In this document: in pieces, positions 3,787 through 33,215 of the stretch
How positions within the stretch are numbered: position 1 is the stretch's first letter
Layout: the number at the start of each line of letters is the position of its first letter
NCBI RefSeq assembly: GCF_017743935.1
Contig: NZ_JAGHRE010000023.1
Coordinates: 1-33,215, forward strand
DNA length: 33,215 nt
Source of the DNA: Tropicibacter sp. R16_0
GTDB taxonomy: Bacteria > Pseudomonadota > Alphaproteobacteria > Rhodobacterales > Rhodobacteraceae
Reading direction: 5' to 3'
Made by a program: the position numbers and the translations under genes
Notes under the pieces: model-generated
Told to the model about the DNA's origin: nothing
Seen by the model: the letters and a program-made list of their open reading frames with translations, nothing else
The model's database searches: none

Positions 3787-3853
3787 ACCTTTGCAATACA
3801 GGTGCAGCAAATAGTCCATGGGATCTCGCCAGATCACATCACTTTGCAAAGGT
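3787..3853. repeat. Inverted repeat in convergent intergenic region
   Basis: ACCTTTGCAA at 3787-3796 is the exact reverse complement of TTGCAAAGGT at 3844-3853. It lies between the convergent ends of the DapA-like gene and the hemolysin-III gene. The 47-base gap makes a simple terminator doubtful; it could be a protein-binding pair or chance. Confidence 0.3.
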
Positions 3854-21186: not shown

Positions 21187-21276
21187 TGGCGGGGAGACAG
21201 GGATTCGAACCCTGGGGACGCTCTCACGCCCAACGGTTTTCAAGACCGCCGCATTCGACCACTCTGCCACCTCCCC
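21187..21276 (-). tRNA. tRNA-Ser (anticodon UGA)
   Basis: The minus strand folds as a 90-base class II tRNA. The acceptor GGGGAGG pairs with TCTCCCC, the D-arm contains GCAGAGTGGTCGAATGC, the anticodon TGA sits at 21242-21240 within CTTGAAA, a long variable arm GGGCGTGAGAGCGTCC follows, and the T-arm reads GGGTTCGAATCCC. Discriminator G and CCA are encoded. It reads UCA and other UCN serine codons. Its 3' end faces the integrase remnant. Confidence 0.96.
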
Positions 21277-26951: not shown

Positions 26952-27884
26952 ATGTTCCAAAGCCTGATCGACGTCATCCTGCCGGTTTTCCTGGTCATCG
27001 GCGCGGGCTATTCGGTCACCCGCGCCGGGTTCTTCAACCAAAGCCACATCGACGGGCTGATGCGGTTCACGCAAAGCTTTGCGATCCCTTGCCTGCTGTT
27101 TCGCGCCATCGCCTCGCTGGACCTGCAAGCCAGCTTTGATCCCCGCCTGCTGGCCAGTTTCTACACCGGGGCTGCGCTTTGTTTCATTGCGGGCATGGCC
27201 GGGGCGCGTCTGATCTTCAAACGCGACTGGGAAGATGCGGTCGTCATCGGCTTTTGCTGCCTGTTTTCAAATTCGGTCCTGCTGGGTCTGCCGATCACCG
27301 AACGCGCCTACGGGGCCGATAACCTGACCGGCAACTATGCGATCATCGCCTTTCATTCGCCCTTTTGCTACGGCGTCGGCATCACAGTGATGGAGGTGAT
27401 CCGCAATCGTGGCAACGGCGGCACCAAGATGGTGGGCTCGGTCCTGTCGGCCATGTTCAAGAACGTGCTGATCCTTGGCATCGCCTTGGGGTTCATCGCC
27501 AACCTGACCGGGCTGGTGATGCCGAAAGTGGTGGATGACGCGCTGGACCTGGTAATCCGCGCCGCCCTGCCCGGCGCACTCTTTGCGCTTGGCGGCGTGC
27601 TGGTGCAATACAGGCCCGAGGGCGACATGCGCACCATTCTCTACGTCTGCTGCATCTCGCTAATGGTACATCCAACGCTGGTTTGGCTCTTCGGTAAGAC
27701 GCTGGCACTGCCGCAGGATCTGTTCCGCTCGGCGGTGCTCAACGCCTCGATGGCCCCGGGGTTCAATGCGTACATCTTTGCCAACATGTACGGCCGCGCC
27801 AAGCGGGTGGCGGCGTCGTCGGTCTTGATGGCCACGGGGGCCTCGATCCTGTCGGTCTGGCTCTGGCTCACTGTGTTGGGCTAG
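26952..27884 (+). CDS. AEC-family (auxin efflux carrier type) transporter
   Basis: A 310-residue inner-membrane carrier with two hydrophobic halves of about five helices each. Typical features are the N-terminal ILPVFLVIGAGYSVTRAGFF and the FSNSVLLGLPI segment near residue 107, with ALPGALFALGG and MAPGFNAYIFA in the second half. Bacterial AEC members move carboxylates such as malonate or malate. The gene starts 27 bases after the MBL gene with a weak ribosome site. Direction and substrate cannot be told from sequence. Confidence 0.86.
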   Translation: MFQSLIDVILPVFLVIGAGYSVTRAGFFNQSHIDGLMRFTQSFAIPCLLFRAIASLDLQASFDPRLLASFYTGAALCFIAGMAGARLIFKRDWEDAVVIGFCCLFSNSVLLGLPITERAYGADNLTGNYAIIAFHSPFCYGVGITVMEVIRNRGNGGTKMVGSVLSAMFKNVLILGIALGFIANLTGLVMPKVVDDALDLVIRAALPGALFALGGVLVQYRPEGDMRTILYVCCISLMVHPTLVWLFGKTLALPQDLFRSAVLNASMAPGFNAYIFANMYGRAKRVAASSVLMATGASILSVWLWLTVLG

Positions 27885-27903
27885 GTCTGCGATCCGCGAT
27901 ACC

Positions 27904-27978
27904 GCGCCTCGCCGCAGGCGAGGCGCCCGGCCCAACGGGAGGATGTGTCCCGCAAGGGGCATAGACGACGGGCGGGAG
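27904..27978. repeat. Structured intergenic repeat, copy 1
   Basis: It has a variable hairpin and a conserved module. GCGCCTCGCC (27904-27913) pairs with GGCGAGGCGC (27917-27926) over a 3-base loop. Next is a segment shared with copy 2: GGCCCAACGGGAGG, a second hairpin with a GCAA loop between TCCC and GGGG, then GACGACGGGCGGGAG. On the minus strand it begins 20 bases past the HupE stop, and on the plus strand 19 bases past the AEC stop. Confidence 0.85.
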
Positions 27979-27998
27979 CCCCCCGGCTCTGGGGCCGA

Positions 27999-29006
27999 TC
28001 AGAACCCGGCAACCCGCTCGGCCAGCCAATAGGTGGCCACGCCTCCAATCGCGTAACCCATCACCAGCGTTCCGGCTGAGGTCGGATCGCGCAATACGGC
28101 AGTGACCCGCGGAGCCACCCAGCGGAGCACAGCAAACGTCACCAAGATGACCGCGACAAAGGCCAACTGCCCCGCCTCAACACCAACGTTGAACGCCAGA
28201 AGCGCCAAGGGGATATCCCCTTGCGGCAGGCCGATCTCGGCCAGAGCACCAGCAAACCCCAGCCCATGCAACAGGCCGAACCCAAATGACAAGAGCCAGG
28301 GGTAGCGCTCGGTCAGTTGGTCACCACCCTGTCTGCGGCGCAGGATCTCGACCGCCAGCAACACGATGGACAGGGCAATCACCGCTTCGACCGGGGGCGA
28401 CGGCACCCGGATCAGGTCCAGCGTCGCCAGCGCCAGCGTGATCGAATGCGCCACGGTAAAGGCCGTGATGGCCCCAACCAGCCGCCACGGGTGCCGGATC
28501 AGAACCAACAAGGCAAAGACAAAGAGCAGATGGTCGAGCCCTTCCAGGATATGATCGAACCCCAGCGCCACGTAACTGCTGAAAACCGCCCACCCGGTCA
28601 TCTCGATGGGCACTGTGAACCCGGTCTGGTCTGCCGTCAGCCGCTTCGACAGGGCCTGCCCCTCTGGTCCCGACAGGCGCACCAGAACATCTGTCCGCGT
28701 CGCCTCCAGCCCTTCGATCACGATAGTCTGCCCCGCCAGCCCACCGGGGCAGAGCGCCACCCATTGCGACACCCAGGCTGCGCCATCAAACTGCGGATCC
28801 CCTTCGGCCCGCGCAGGTGCGCAATTGGGCGGCAGCACCGCATCAATCGCCATCGGCTCACCCTGAACTGTCGGCTTTCGCCAGAACACTTGCCAGGCGC
28901 CGTTGTTCAGATGTTGCAATTGCAGATATCCGGGGTCCAACGCATGCGCTTGCGCCATTCCTGTCCAGACCCATAGGGCCACAAGGGCCACCAGCACCCG
29001 TTTCAT
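27999..29006 (-). CDS. HupE/UreJ-family membrane protein
   Basis: A 335-residue protein of the longer HupE/UreJ type. A signal peptide (1-20, AQA) leaves a mature N-terminal histidine (HALDPGY). A periplasmic domain of about 120 residues follows, then a membrane domain with about six to seven helices. The metal-transport signature GFDHILEGLDHLLF holds H152 and H159; further motifs are VAHSITLA, FGLLHGLGFAG and FNVGVEAGQL. Shorter family members carry nickel or cobalt. No urease or hydrogenase genes are visible here. The start overlaps the PpiC-like stop by 4 bases, so the two work together. Confidence 0.87.
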   Translation of the reverse strand: MKRVLVALVALWVWTGMAQAHALDPGYLQLQHLNNGAWQVFWRKPTVQGEPMAIDAVLPPNCAPARAEGDPQFDGAAWVSQWVALCPGGLAGQTIVIEGLEATRTDVLVRLSGPEGQALSKRLTADQTGFTVPIEMTGWAVFSSYVALGFDHILEGLDHLLFVFALLVLIRHPWRLVGAITAFTVAHSITLALATLDLIRVPSPPVEAVIALSIVLLAVEILRRRQGGDQLTERYPWLLSFGFGLLHGLGFAGALAEIGLPQGDIPLALLAFNVGVEAGQLAFVAVILVTFAVLRWVAPRVTAVLRDPTSAGTLVMGYAIGGVATYWLAERVAGF

Positions 29007-29848
29007 TGCGCCACCAGCGCGTTCAGCTCATCCTCTGACGGCGTTTCAACCGCATAGGCCGTCAACAGCGCCTTGACCTGCGCCTCAGACAGGGCCGAGG
29101 CCTGTTGTCGGCGCCAATCAAACAGAACCTTGTCTTCCACTTCAGCCAGATCGGGGAGCCGGGGTGGCTCTGCTTCAGTCACTCGGATCAAGTGAATGCC
29201 AAAACCGGACCGAACGGGGCCGCCCCACTCGCCCTGCGGCAAACTCGACAGCGCCGCCGCAAACCCGCGCCCAAATCCCCCATCAATCTGAACTGGAGCC
29301 GAAGCCGGGACCTGAGGCGGCAGCATCGATGCCTGCCCCAGCGACAAGGGATCAGCGCCCCCTTGCAGCGCGCTCAGGGCCACGTCCACCGCCTGAGCCG
29401 TCGGGTTTTCGCCCAGAAACACCTGGTCAAACGCCAACGTTCCGGGCTGCTCGAACAGATCGGCGTTGGCCTCTAGATGCGCCTGCAAAACGGCAGGCTC
29501 CGGTGACAGGGCCTGTGCCGCGCTGTCCGTCAGGAACTGCATCTTTTGACGCAGACGATTGCGGATCACCGCGTCGCCGCGCTCCAACCCAAGCACCTGA
29601 GCCTCGCGCACCAGAACCTCTTCGCGGATGAGGGTCTGGATCAACCCATCCAGCTCCTCCCGCGTGGGTGGTCTGCGCCAGGCTTGCGTGTATTGCTCGA
29701 CAAGCAAGGTTGCATCGGCGATCGACACTTCGATCACGCCATCATCGATCGCTTCGGGTTCGGGCTCGGCCACCGCCTGAAAATAGACAAACAGGGCAAT
29801 CGCCAAAAGTCCAAAATGAACAATGGGTTCGCGCAATATCCGAGGCAT
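29003..29848 (-). CDS. Membrane-anchored PpiC/SurA-like peptidyl-prolyl isomerase
   Basis: A 281-residue periplasmic foldase. One N-terminal membrane helix (about residues 10-26) is followed by a SurA-N-like helical region (EELDGLIQTLIREEVLVREA) and a parvulin-like domain (about 140-245, including PVQIDGGFGRGFAAALSSLPQGEW then GFGIHLIRV). The ATG at 29848 is favoured over an upstream GTG because GGAG is at a usable distance. Tight coupling to the HupE-like gene suggests it folds or stabilises that protein's periplasmic part. Confidence 0.85.
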   Translation of the reverse strand: MPRILREPIVHFGLLAIALFVYFQAVAEPEPEAIDDGVIEVSIADATLLVEQYTQAWRRPPTREELDGLIQTLIREEVLVREAQVLGLERGDAVIRNRLRQKMQFLTDSAAQALSPEPAVLQAHLEANADLFEQPGTLAFDQVFLGENPTAQAVDVALSALQGGADPLSLGQASMLPPQVPASAPVQIDGGFGRGFAAALSSLPQGEWGGPVRSGFGIHLIRVTEAEPPRLPDLAEVEDKVLFDWRRQQASALSEAQVKALLTAYAVETPSEDELNALVAQ

Positions 29849-29985
29849 GAAATCGATCACTCCAACGTCGCTTTGATCCTAGTTTTGCCGCTTGCGTCGA
29901 GACACGCAACAGGTGCGGCCACGCAACATTGACAAGTGGGCCGTGCAGGACATTTATGGCACATCGCCAGTTGGAGAAGTCGAAC

Positions 29986-30705
29986 ATGTCCCCTTTGCCG
30001 CCGCAGGCCCTGATTGTCTCGCATGGCCAACCCTCCGAACCGGCCCCGGCCGAAGCCGCGTTGAAAGGGCTGGCGTCAAAGGTCACCGCGCATCTGCCGG
30101 GCTGGGACGTGCAATCGGCCACGCTTGCGGCCGAGGGTCGCCTGGAAGAAGCCTTGGACACACTCTCACATGGCGCGTTGATCTATCCCATGTTCATGGC
30201 CAAAGGGTGGTTCGTAACCTCCGCCCTGCCAAAACGGCTTGGACAGGCCCCTGTCACAGTTGTCGACCCCCTGGGCGTGGATCCTGCCCTCCCCGATTTG
30301 GCGGCGCAGACCCTTGAAACCGCAGCGCAGGATGCAGGCTGGTCGCTCGGGCAGACAACCGTTCTGCTGGCCGCCCACGGATCGGGACGCAGCCGGAAAC
30401 CCGCCCAGATGGCGCAGGGATTTGCGGACGCCATCGCCGCTCGGCTGAAGGTCGCAGACATTCGCGTTGGATTTGTCGAAGAGGCCCCTTTTGTCGACCA
30501 GGCCGCACTGGGATGTGATGCCAAATCGATTTGCATGCCGCTGTTTGCCTGCCCTGGGTTCCACACCACGCAAGACGTCCCCGAGGCGTTGGTAAAGGCC
30601 GAATTTCCTGGCCTCCTCCTTCCCGTCCTGGGCGAGGCTCCTGGCGTTCCGCAGCTCATCGCGGACAGGCTGAAAGATCATCGCAGCCTGTCGGACCCCC
30701 GCTAA
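29986..30705 (+). CDS. CbiX/sirohydrochlorin chelatase-like protein
   Basis: A 239-residue protein with two halves of the CbiX type. The first begins ALIVSHGQPSEPAP (residues 8-21, with the metal-site histidine). The second begins VLLAAHGSGRSRKPAQM (about 125-141) and ends with a FFACPGFHTTQDVPE-like segment. Family members insert cobalt or iron into sirohydrochlorin for B12 or siroheme. No tetrapyrrole genes lie beside it, so a general metal-chelatase role cannot be excluded. GGAGAAG precedes the ATG at 29986. It diverges from the PpiC/HupE pair, which may import a metal, a suggestive but unproven link. Confidence 0.8.
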   Translation: MSPLPPQALIVSHGQPSEPAPAEAALKGLASKVTAHLPGWDVQSATLAAEGRLEEALDTLSHGALIYPMFMAKGWFVTSALPKRLGQAPVTVVDPLGVDPALPDLAAQTLETAAQDAGWSLGQTTVLLAAHGSGRSRKPAQMAQGFADAIAARLKVADIRVGFVEEAPFVDQAALGCDAKSICMPLFACPGFHTTQDVPEALVKAEFPGLLLPVLGEAPGVPQLIADRLKDHRSLSDPR

Positions 30706-30708
30706 GGC

Positions 30709-32004
30709 TCAGTTGCCCGACGGAACGGTCGGAAAGACAGGGAGTGCGGCCGTGCCGGTCTGTGCCGGAACACCCGTCAACGCAGCGGACAAGACCGCAA
30801 TCCGATCAGGCGTTTGCCCCAATACCGTTGCCCCGCTTTGGGCGGCGTTCAGGGCCAGCCGCATCCAATCGCCTGCCACATTGCCTTGCCCCTTGGCCGC
30901 GCCAAATCCTTCGCGCAGGTGGTGGCTGACGATCTCGCCGTATCCAAGCTGCCCGGCGGAGGCCAACAGAACACCCGAGGCCATCGCCATTTCGGCGTCA
31001 TCGGTGCGATAGCCAACGCCCAGACACACCTTGCCGCCCGACACCAGCTGATCCATCGGCCTTCCTGAATTTCGCAGGAAAGACGAGCCATCGGCAATCA
31101 CCTGACTGGGCGAATTGCTGTCAATCCCGCCCATGTGCGGTGTCATGGCCTGGGTCAGCCCTTTGCATTGGGCTTCGATCTGGGGACCTGACATGTTGGG
31201 AATTGTTGCCTCGATCCGCGAGCTTTCGGCCATCGCCTGCGTGCGGGCCAGGCAGAATTGCTCGTTCAGCGCGAACTCGGCATCTGTCACGTTGCCGCCC
31301 GAACTCAGGCCACCATTGGCTGCAGTCAGAACGTTGATCTCGTTACAGTGTTCGTTGGCCGAACGGGCCTGTGCACCAAAGGTGAAATCCGGCAAAGCAC
31401 CGGTGTTGGCGCGTGCAGGAACCGTGTTCTGGGTCGGCGCAGGCGCTGTGGCCTGCTGGACCTGCGGCTGCTGCACCTGTGGCGTCGGTATACCCAGCTG
31501 TTCGTTGCGGTAGGTCCGTAGCAGGCCCTGCTGCCCCTGGCTGGCCAGGATCTGATTGTAGGGCGCGACATGGGCACTGGCCAAAGCCCGTTGATGGCTG
31601 TTGAGCAGGAAACTGCGTTCGGTATCGTCCAGACGTCCATCAATGGCATAGCCCATGTCGGACTGGTAATTCGAGATGCCCGCACGTGTCTTGCGCCCGA
31701 TCGAGCCGTCGACGGCGCCAACGTTGTAGCCAAAGTAGTTCAGGGCGGATTGCACGTTGCGGTTCTGCTCGCGCTGCGCGGCCGAAATCCCGGAGGACCG
31801 CGAGGACGTCCGTGCGCGCGTTTGCTGCTGTTGCTGTTGCTGCTGGCGCTGCCGGGCCTTGTTCTTGTTGACTTCGTTGATGATGATACCGCCCAGAATG
31901 GCGCCACCGATCAGGGCCGCGGCTTCATCTGCCCGCGCCTCTTTCGCCGGGACAAGAACCAGGCTGGTTGCCACAAGGGTGGCACAAACGCTTTTGGTAA
32001 ACAT
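30709..32004 (-). CDS. Exported peptidoglycan-binding-domain protein with polyQ tract
   Basis: A 431-residue exported protein. A signal peptide (about 1-25, ARA) precedes a glycine-rich hydrophobic stretch (29-43, ALIGGAILGGIIINE) that could be a glycine-zipper. Then comes a run of eight glutamines (54-61) and a PG_binding_1 domain (about 83-135, NVQSALNYFGYNVGAVDGSIG). A Gln/Pro/Thr-rich linker (about 170-200) leads to a C-terminal domain of about 220 residues that I do not recognise, with four cysteines (HCNEIN, EQFCLAR, EAQCKGL, GKVCLGVG). It probably sits on the cell wall. GAGG precedes the ATG. It converges with the CbiX-like gene, 3 bases apart. Confidence 0.8.
   Translation of the reverse strand: MFTKSVCATLVATSLVLVPAKEARADEAAALIGGAILGGIIINEVNKNKARQRQQQQQQQQTRARTSSRSSGISAAQREQNRNVQSALNYFGYNVGAVDGSIGRKTRAGISNYQSDMGYAIDGRLDDTERSFLLNSHQRALASAHVAPYNQILASQGQQGLLRTYRNEQLGIPTPQVQQPQVQQATAPAPTQNTVPARANTGALPDFTFGAQARSANEHCNEINVLTAANGGLSSGGNVTDAEFALNEQFCLARTQAMAESSRIEATIPNMSGPQIEAQCKGLTQAMTPHMGGIDSNSPSQVIADGSSFLRNSGRPMDQLVSGGKVCLGVGYRTDDAEMAMASGVLLASAGQLGYGEIVSHHLREGFGAAKGQGNVAGDWMRLALNAAQSGATVLGQTPDRIAVLSAALTGVPAQTGTAALPVFPTVPSGN
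31822..31845. repeat. CAG/CAA polyglutamine tract
   Basis: Eight in-frame CAG or CAA codons encode glutamines 54-61 of the peptidoglycan-binding protein. Alternating CAG and CAA lowers slippage, yet the tract may still vary in length between strains. Confidence 0.8.
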
Positions 32005-32312
32005 AACAATAACCTCGTGGATCCCGACGGCGCTCGCGCATTGGCTGAACCTCTGGGGATCTTTGCTAATGGAATTTGAACCCTTGATACAACAAGCCGA
32101 ACAAACAGCCCCCTTATTGTCAAGGTTGAGACCTGCCCAAACCCCGATTTCACCGCAATTGTGAACATATCGCGGCTTTCAGTACAAGGTTATGAGATCA
32201 CTCTTGGCCAATTCTCGCAACGCGATCAGCAGAAGAGCGCCGATCACGCTCTTGGCGTACAACCTGCGCGGCCTGTCGGCCTTGCGTCCTGCGGACGGCA
32301 CGTAGAGGGGGC
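32005..32312. other. Upstream region of the polyQ gene, no gene seen
   Basis: These 308 bases must contain the promoter of the leftward gene at 32004. A minus-strand TTGACA near 32116-32121 is a possible -35, but the nearest TTGTAT is too far for a standard spacer. No other feature is supported before the structured repeat at 32313. Confidence 0.4.
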
Positions 32313-32398
32313 GGGCCAGGCTCATGCGGGCGTTGCCCGCATGAGCCTGGCCCAACGGGAGGAGATGCCCCGCCAGGGGCGTCGACGACGGGCGGGAG
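32313..32398. repeat. Structured intergenic repeat, copy 2
   Basis: The hairpin arms 32313-32331 and 32335-32353 pair perfectly over 19 bases with a 3-base loop. Their sequence is unlike copy 1 (GGCTCATGCGGGC against GCGCCTCGCC), yet the next 45 bases match copy 1: CCCAACGGGAGG, a stem GATGCCCC/GGGGCGTC with GCCA loop, then GACGACGGGCGGGAG. On the minus strand it starts 21 bases past the stop of the gene ending at 32420. Confidence 0.88.
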
Positions 32399-32419
32399 TG
32401 CTTGGCCTGATGGAACGTG

Positions 32420-33215
32420 TCAGGGTCGCGTCAAGGTGAGGTTCAGAAGGTCGGAGGCCTCCATGTCTGGCCGGGCCGCATATTGATCCAAGGTATCGGC
32501 AAACCGATCCAACCCGTCTCTCAGCCCGCTTTGCCCCGACAGGGTCAATTCTTCCTCCAACACGCTCAAGGCCATCTGTCGGGCCTCAGCCCCGATATCA
32601 GTCACCAAAGTGTCGAGCGCCGTGCGGTATGACAGCAGATAGACCTGCTGCTGGCGCCGCATCTCGGCAATCTCGGTCACATGCTTTTGCACCTGCCGGT
32701 CGAACACTTCACTCTTGCGTCCGGCCCGTTGCAGCGACACCAGCATCCGGATGTTGGCGGCCTTGTTATCGATCGCGCGTGCATTCTGAGCCAGGGCTTC
32801 GGCAAAGACCGTCCCCGCCAGCAAAGTAGATCGCGCTGTCTGTTGCAATGCGATCTGGACCTGATCCCGGTTCCGGCGCAGATCCAGCTGCAGGTCCGCC
32901 AGCGCGCTGCGTCTGCGCAGGTCGGGCTCGGCCTCGATCAGGTCCGAGAGCACTTTGCCGGGATCAACCCCTCCCTCCTCCTGAGCGCCCTCGGCCCGCG
33001 CAACCCAGCGGTCGCGAATGTCGTTCAGCCGTGCCTCGGACGTCGCTATGTAGGTCGCGATGACAAACCGCGCACCAAAACTGTCGCCGCGCAGGGGTCG
33101 CCCCGTGCGCACATCGAACGGCGGGTACTCGGTGCGCTGCGCGGAATAGATTTGATCCGCGCTCGACAGCACCGACCCGCCCCGCGTGACAACGCCCCCC
33201 ACCTGCCCATGCGCC
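32420..33215 (-). CDS. Unknown helical protein, C-terminal 265 residues (cut by window edge)
   Basis: The frame is open from the right edge to the stop at 32420; a GTG at 33202 is not needed as a start because codons continue to the edge. I do not recognise the family. An early segment reads LSSADQIYSAQRTEYPPFDVRTG; most of the rest is predicted helical and rich in Arg, Gln, Glu and Ala (for example RRSALADLQLDLRRNRDQVQ and VLEEELTLSGQSGLRDGLDR), suggesting coiled coils or a helical bundle. There are no cysteines and no membrane segments in the visible part. The signal peptide, if any, is outside the window. Confidence 0.7.
   Translation of the reverse strand, partial: AHGQVGGVVTRGGSVLSSADQIYSAQRTEYPPFDVRTGRPLRGDSFGARFVIATYIATSEARLNDIRDRWVARAEGAQEEGGVDPGKVLSDLIEAEPDLRRRSALADLQLDLRRNRDQVQIALQQTARSTLLAGTVFAEALAQNARAIDNKAANIRMLVSLQRAGRKSEVFDRQVQKHVTEIAEMRRQQQVYLLSYRTALDTLVTDIGAEARQMALSVLEEELTLSGQSGLRDGLDRFADTLDQYAARPDMEASDLLNLTLTRP

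Follow-up and report, generated by a model that had tools for sequence, protein, structure and literature searches.

The window, a stretch of 33,215 nucleotides from Tropicibacter sp. R16_0, carries two copies of a structured repeat, and the locus raises the question of what this element is and what it does beside genes. An earlier note had reported the two copies together with their hairpins, loops and distances to stop codons, and these observations were borne out by the sequence, RNA folding and gene calls. The features of the two copies and their neighbouring genes are as follows.

26952..27884, + strand: gene entering element 1 from the left (Pfam Mem_trans)
27887..27987, + strand: element 1, full repeat unit of class C (approximate ends, taken from how far blastn matches to other copies reach)
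27904..27926, + strand: element 1 P1, a 10-bp hairpin with a 3-base loop (sequence and RNA fold)
27929..27942, + strand: element 1 left core, GGCCCAACGGGAGG (sequence and alignment)
27944..27963, + strand: element 1 P2, 8 bp (27944-27951 / 27956-27963) with a 4-base loop (RNA fold and covariation)
27966..27978, + strand: element 1 right core, CGACGGGCGGGAG (sequence and alignment)
27973..27985, + strand: element 1 possible P3, CGGG-AGCCC-CCCG (sequence and P3 frequency in copies; absent from the predicted RNA fold)
27999..29006, - strand: gene entering element 1 from the right (Pfam HupE_UreJ_2)
30709..32004, - strand: gene flanking element 2 on the left (Pfam PG_binding_1)
32263..32403, + strand: element 2, full repeat unit of class A (approximate ends, taken from how far blastn matches to other copies reach)
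32270..32296, + strand: element 2, two small upstream hairpins typical of class A, GGCC-TGTC-GGCC (32270-32281) and GTCC-TGC-GGAC (32286-32296) (by eye)
32313..32353, + strand: element 2 P1, a 19-bp hairpin with a 3-base loop (sequence and RNA fold; two-sided changes at the orthologous site)
32349..32362, + strand: element 2 left core (sequence and alignment)
32364..32383, + strand: element 2 P2, 8 bp (32364-32371 / 32376-32383) with a 4-base loop (sequence, RNA fold and covariation)
32386..32398, + strand: element 2 right core (sequence and alignment)
32420..33202, - strand: gene whose stop lies 21 bases from element 2 (without a Pfam family)

The 50-base modules of the two copies occupy 27929-27978 and 32349-32398, and in copy 2 the final P1 bases double as the first bases of the module. 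Element 1 lies between convergent genes, as stops are found on both sides, each 20 bases off: its P1 (27904) begins 20 bases past the + strand stop at 27884, and its module ends 20 bases from the minus-strand stop at 27999. Element 2 lies between two minus-strand genes in tandem, with 21 bases from the module to 32420. The upstream hairpins of class A occur in GGCC/GGCC and GACC/GGTC versions among the copies.

Searches with the module showed that the earlier observation is correct and that the family is far larger than two copies. The 12-base seed CCCAACGGGAGG, with at most one mismatch, matched 146 times in the 5.24-Mb genome, compared with 32 matches for a reversed control. The covariance model R1, built from 32 copies of the 50-base module and used with a cut-off of E 0.01 or better, returned at least 137 matches, a lower bound since only 150 candidates were scored (one further copy was found later). 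Among these genome-wide matches are elements 1 and 2 at E-values of 1.9e-13 and 4.6e-13, both copies being part of the model's 32, and the claim that the copies exceed chance is upheld. For further analysis, 136 of the 137 copies were retrieved with their flanks.

Many more copies are present in related genomes. Among 61 relatives, ten carry the element: the four genomes of the genus (the Tropicibacter genome and three sister species), with at least 98 matches each (all 98 scored candidates matched), and six of other genera, with 2 to 41 matches each. In a sample of the Rhodobacteraceae, with 15 candidates scored per genome, the element was present in 54 of 394 genomes and 53 of 393 genera, and at this depth it was not detected in the other 340 genera. 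A class-wide sample of 289 genomes gave matches in the Tropicibacter genome and in none of the 288 others, at least three of which belong to the same family. When named genomes were searched with the exact core pattern, at least 94 stretches matched; the 80 loci among the matches listed come from Ruegeria, Leisingera, Phaeobacter, Pseudophaeobacter, Tropicimonas, Tritonibacter, Shimia, Mangrovicoccus, Pararhodobacter, Rubricella, Aliiruegeria and others, and the remaining titles name Rhodobacteraceae, Rhodobacterales or, in one case, Alphaproteobacteria bacteria. The element family was seen here only in Rhodobacteraceae. A plasmid collection searched with the 141-base unit gave no match.

The earlier note knew of no named family for the repeat, and this agrees with Rfam 15, where nothing on the element reached gathering thresholds: the sole match in the window is a tRNA gene (21190-21276, minus strand), and 12 loci of other genera gave three matches, none of them on the element. 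A permissive search of 27700-32600 returned two microRNA families far below threshold. The cuckoo/CcsR RNA was dropped as a candidate because of the copy number, the free stems and the lack of an Rfam match. In the listed titles and opening parts of abstracts from searches of an open-access library, we found no description matching the element.

Comparison of the copies revealed a common architecture. The constant core consists of a left half, GGCCCAAC-NN-GAGG, and a right half, CGA-NN-GGCGGGAG, where NN stands for the variable positions x1x2 and y1y2. Between the halves lies P2, which is nearly free in sequence and occurs in several quite different types, most commonly with an 8-bp stem and a 4-base loop, next to shorter and longer forms. 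The core is preceded by P1, a variable and unrelated hairpin that mostly ends at either of two offsets from the core, and types of both P1 and P2 are common to different sites. With a cut-off score of 6, P1 was detected in 87 of the 136 copies from the Tropicibacter genome, compared with 8.7% of 680 shuffles, and among named genomes in 72 of 84 copies, compared with 11.7% of 420 shuffles (two of 86 were dropped for short flanks); stems with two G.A mismatches, which are common in class B, score below this cut-off. A small P3 of four pairs, G-T allowed, is found in 89 of 136 copies in the former set (shuffled 10.7%) and 38 of 86 in the latter (shuffled 11.2%). As the comparison shows, one strand can fold into a P1 hairpin, core, P2 stem, core and, often, a P3 hairpin.

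The proposed selection on structure is supported by two-sided pair changes in the alignments. In the single-strand working alignment A2 (32 copies, 30 distinct), six of eight P2 pairs show such changes, and in an alignment of 118 copies (98 distinct), whose underlying model contained P2 and none of the core pairs, they are seen in 12 of the 14 pairs of a longer helix. Two-sided cells number 198 in this alignment, compared with 50 in shuffles, which ignore relatedness, and at most 56 in slid versions. Three of the 14 positions are mostly non-standard, namely 9-44 (G.G), 14-39 (G.A) and 15-38 (A.G). Pair 9-44 reads GG in 106 copies, CG in 7, AT in 3, GC in 1 and CT in 1; 10-43 reads GC in 108, AT in 8 and other combinations in 2; and 14.39 reads G.A in 92, GC in 13, GT in 7 and others in 6. 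Tandem G.A pairs are formed by 11.42 (G.A in 114 of 118) and 12.41 (A.G in 117 of 118). In 92 copies from other genera, pair 13-40 reads GC 84 times, AT 4 times, TA 3 times and CG once; about half of these copies were picked by the exact core pattern, which fixes positions 13 and 40, and a few rows duplicate copies. Since core positions covary with each other, P2 is only the end of a helix that reaches further and includes tandem G.A pairs; the strong covariation extends through these pairs into the core.

Two further features were observed at individual loci. In some copies (L300, minus strand, near 3791-3840; also L254, L280 and L291), P1 is extended, with TTGGGCC upstream as a mirror image of the left core GGCCCAACGGG; L300 goes further and has CCCGTTGGGCC there. 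This longer palindrome may be an older form of the element. A second repeated motif, CCCCGCCGGAGGC, follows an AT-rich stretch and occurs 10 times in the retrieved loci of other genera (L066, L075, L084, L154, L228, L258, L266, L267 and L310); it stands directly before P1 in 4 of 86 named-genome copies and in the left flank of none of the 136 Tropicibacter copies.

The placement after stop codons that the earlier note had described for two copies holds for the family, both in the Tropicibacter genome and in other genera, as the tabulated stop distances and gene orientations show. Gene calls from a simple purpose-made caller place 134 of the 136 copies between two called genes, 93 of them convergent, 40 tandem and 1 divergent; of the remaining two, one lies inside a doubtful called gene and one has no left gene. 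Median distances are 27 bases between the 3' end of the module and the opposing stop (115 copies) and 151 bases between the 5' side and its stop (112 copies). In continuous 800-kb stretches of each of the sister species G002 and G003, the element is present in 34 of 82 gaps of 100 bases or more between convergent genes, compared with 21 of 269 such gaps between tandem genes and 2 of 172 between divergent ones (Fisher p 1.5e-11 versus tandem and 2.6e-17 versus divergent). Two slightly overlapping sets from other genera, leaving out 10 and 5 edge or in-gene cases, have 34 of 57 and 15 of 38 copies between convergent genes and 4 and 2 between divergent ones. By this comparison, the element sits after stop codons, chiefly between convergent genes. 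Opposed module pairs lie close together, like REP dimers, at L137 1863-2049, L228 1362-1547, L239 1501-1866, L248 5178-5350 and L273 7278-7629.

Known REPs also favour gaps between convergent and tandem genes, according to the text of PMC3733652, so that placement alone is no proof of function, and an old selfish repeat of REP/MITE type stays a strong rival and is the main one. Such a repeat would have spread as single-stranded DNA by a transposase that is now lost or acts from elsewhere, would have no host function, would survive only where it is harmless, after genes, and would exchange stems between copies by recombination. High copy number, the patchy distribution over 54 of 394 genomes, REP-like placement, P1 and P2 types common to several sites and some opposed pairs fit this explanation, as does a strand-specific fold regardless of transcription (see below). 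The stability of its sites and the near-constant core speak against it, and we regard it as possible but on balance doubtful.

In all four species of the genus, both window copies occupy the same site, at 78-91% DNA identity, and their orthologues show two-sided changes in P1 and P2. Those of element 1 have the same P1 in G003 and G001, while the copy in G002 lacks P1 and has another paired P2. Overall, site and orientation are kept in 48 of 55 comparisons: 19 of the 25 copies (out of 136) placeable on the G002 stretches keep the module in the same orientation, and 29 of the 30 placeable on those of G003 keep it. The seven misses comprise one locus without P1 and module that retains the upstream part of the unit, for which deletion is the better explanation and an empty site less likely, one reduced element, one short bare gap, one element in the other orientation and three longer gaps without module. 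No clear empty site was found in the 55 comparisons, one case being ambiguous, and there is no sign of recent movement. Core identity between orthologues is 95.7% and 96.4%, figures bounded by a search pattern that permits only two changes per half. P2 is identical or differs by up to four changes in 22 of 29 G003 pairs, compared with 7 of 19 G002 pairs. That entire stems are replaced while the site is kept suggests that copies exchange them. The comparison shows an old element, which has remained in place as the species diverged, with its core retained and its stems changing.

A Y1/RAYT-type transposase (Y1_Tnp, PF01797) is absent from all four genomes of the genus; it is present in two other element-bearing genomes, G010 and G018, and no module was found beside 12 scanned Y1 loci, two of which come from these genomes (one of five G018 matches was examined). 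On the evidence of these genomes and loci, Y1/RAYT was rejected as the mobiliser. The G002 stretches show no replication orientation bias (14 versus 15), which also counts against a selfish repeat. Of the earlier suggestion of a mobile REP-like sequence, the REP-like placement and copy number stand, and mobility is unsupported.

Gene ends with the element also differ in their terminators. In G002 and G003 together, U-tract terminators are present at 13 of 70 convergent ends with the element and 53 of 126 without it (p 0.0009); by genome, the counts are 11 of 42 versus 29 of 74 in G002 and 2 of 28 versus 24 of 52 in G003. In the Tropicibacter genome, a U-tract terminator lies between stop and module at 11 of 93 convergent ends on each side, and, again on each side, 7 of the 93 convergent copies have a U-tract within or just after the element. 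This deficit is a correlation, and insertion into terminators could be an alternative cause. At three sites of this genome (C32:222455, C32:54843 and C35:145924), the class B hairpin and the core are separated by T-rich sequence like GATTTCTTTC, which has a terminator-like look.

From the covariation in 12 of 14 pairs, the convergent enrichment in the genus and in other genera, the kept sites and the scarcity of U-tract terminators at convergent ends, we tentatively favour, with a confidence just short of even, structured gene-end elements that mark and protect transcript ends from both sides and probably derive from an old REP-type repeat kept for this use. The lack of orientation preference in tandem pairs (21 versus 19) is as expected of an element working from both sides; it ill suits a one-way transcribed signal. 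The 3'-UTR or processing signal proposed earlier is possible. Against a role at gene ends, tandem ends with the element are not poorer in U-tract terminators (6 of 21 versus 90 of 409 without it), and absence from 340 of 393 family genera means that the element is dispensable there.

Transcription of the folded strand bears on the same question. P2 cells of 127 readable copies comprise 701 Watson-Crick, 139 G-T, 29 A-C and 129 other combinations, and the excess of G-T over A-C identifies the + strand of the module, and not the reverse one, as the folded strand. In 20 copies neither neighbour transcribes the + strand, and the bias persists there (22 G-T versus 4 A-C). In all, 21 of 134 copies have no neighbour transcribing the + strand, and these show no core decay (16 of 21 perfect, p 0.96). 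Upkeep of the fold thus seems independent of one neighbour's transcription, which is odd for an element acting as that neighbour's RNA and counts against a role at gene ends. Exchange between copies could also cause a strand bias without transcription.

The same independence from transcription would be compatible with a DNA-level site, to which gyrase or another DNA protein would bind and remove the positive supercoils that arise between convergent genes, a role discussed for the REPs of E. coli. Convergent enrichment and the discussion of gyrase on REPs in the text of PMC3733652 agree with this idea; P2, however, varies freely in length and sequence, which is hardly compatible with a duplex-reading protein, and we consider such a site improbable. 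Precursors of small RNAs released from 3'-UTRs would account for a defined multi-hairpin fold, and UTR-derived sRNAs are known in Rhodobacter, as indicated in PMC8625941. More than 100 copies with free stems, the 21 of 134 copies without a neighbour transcribing the + strand and the lack of an Rfam match make this explanation highly improbable.

If the elements do serve gene ends from both sides, a polymerase entering from either side would make an RNA ending in strong hairpins, which would help it to stop, probably with Rho, and would block 3'-5' nucleases and so protect the transcript. Converging genes would then not read into each other, and the constant G.A helix may be the docking site of a candidate cognate factor. 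The origin would probably be an old REP-type repeat, retained for use at gene ends. A more specific and rather unlikely version is a family-specific two-sided insulator of gene ends, whose tandem-G.A helix is read by one cognate factor, whose stems are swapped between sites like cassettes, and which replaces U-tract terminators at about four in ten longer convergent junctions.

Some marine Rhodobacteraceae thus carry more than 100 copies per genome of an element that has no Rfam family, a core constant across genera and almost free stems. A role in ending or protecting transcripts would explain how converging genes are separated with few U-tract terminators, and each copy-rich genome offers more than 100 natural variants for testing function. 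Should it be no more than a repeat, the stability of its sites in a genus that lacks a RAYT-type transposase is informative about the persistence of REP-type repeats.

Among known systems, bidirectional intrinsic terminators share GC-rich hairpins between convergent genes and close to stops; unlike them, most copies of the element lack a U-tract, and terminators lack a constant core. The CGTC-tagged REPs, possible kin of the element that were compared by the text descriptions in PMC3733652, are likewise alphaproteobacterial, have no dedicated transposase known, and lie between convergent genes at no more than about 20 bases from stops. Their stem of 8-9 bp and loop of 4-5 bases fit the commonest form of P2, with its 8-bp stem and 4-base loop, and CGTC occurs in the constant CCCGTCG of the minus strand near P2, the bases between CGTC and P2 being variable. 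In contrast to the AT pairs at their first two stem positions, 69 of 98 distinct rows have GC or GU as the outer pair of P2; their CCA tail has no counterpart in the constant left core after P2 on the minus strand, and the element has a long constant core and P1. With the GTAG-tagged, RAYT-associated REPs and BIMEs, the element shares high copy number, extragenic location, GC-rich hairpins with G-T in the stems, and a position near gene 3' ends that is rare between divergent genes. It differs from them in having no GTAG in its constant core and no RAYT in the genus, in combining a long constant core with two free stems where REPs have a constant stem, and in consisting of about 75-141 bases, mostly as single copies at sites kept between species. 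The element lacks some defining features of GTAG and CGTC REPs, the latter judged from text descriptions, and is REP-like in placement and number.
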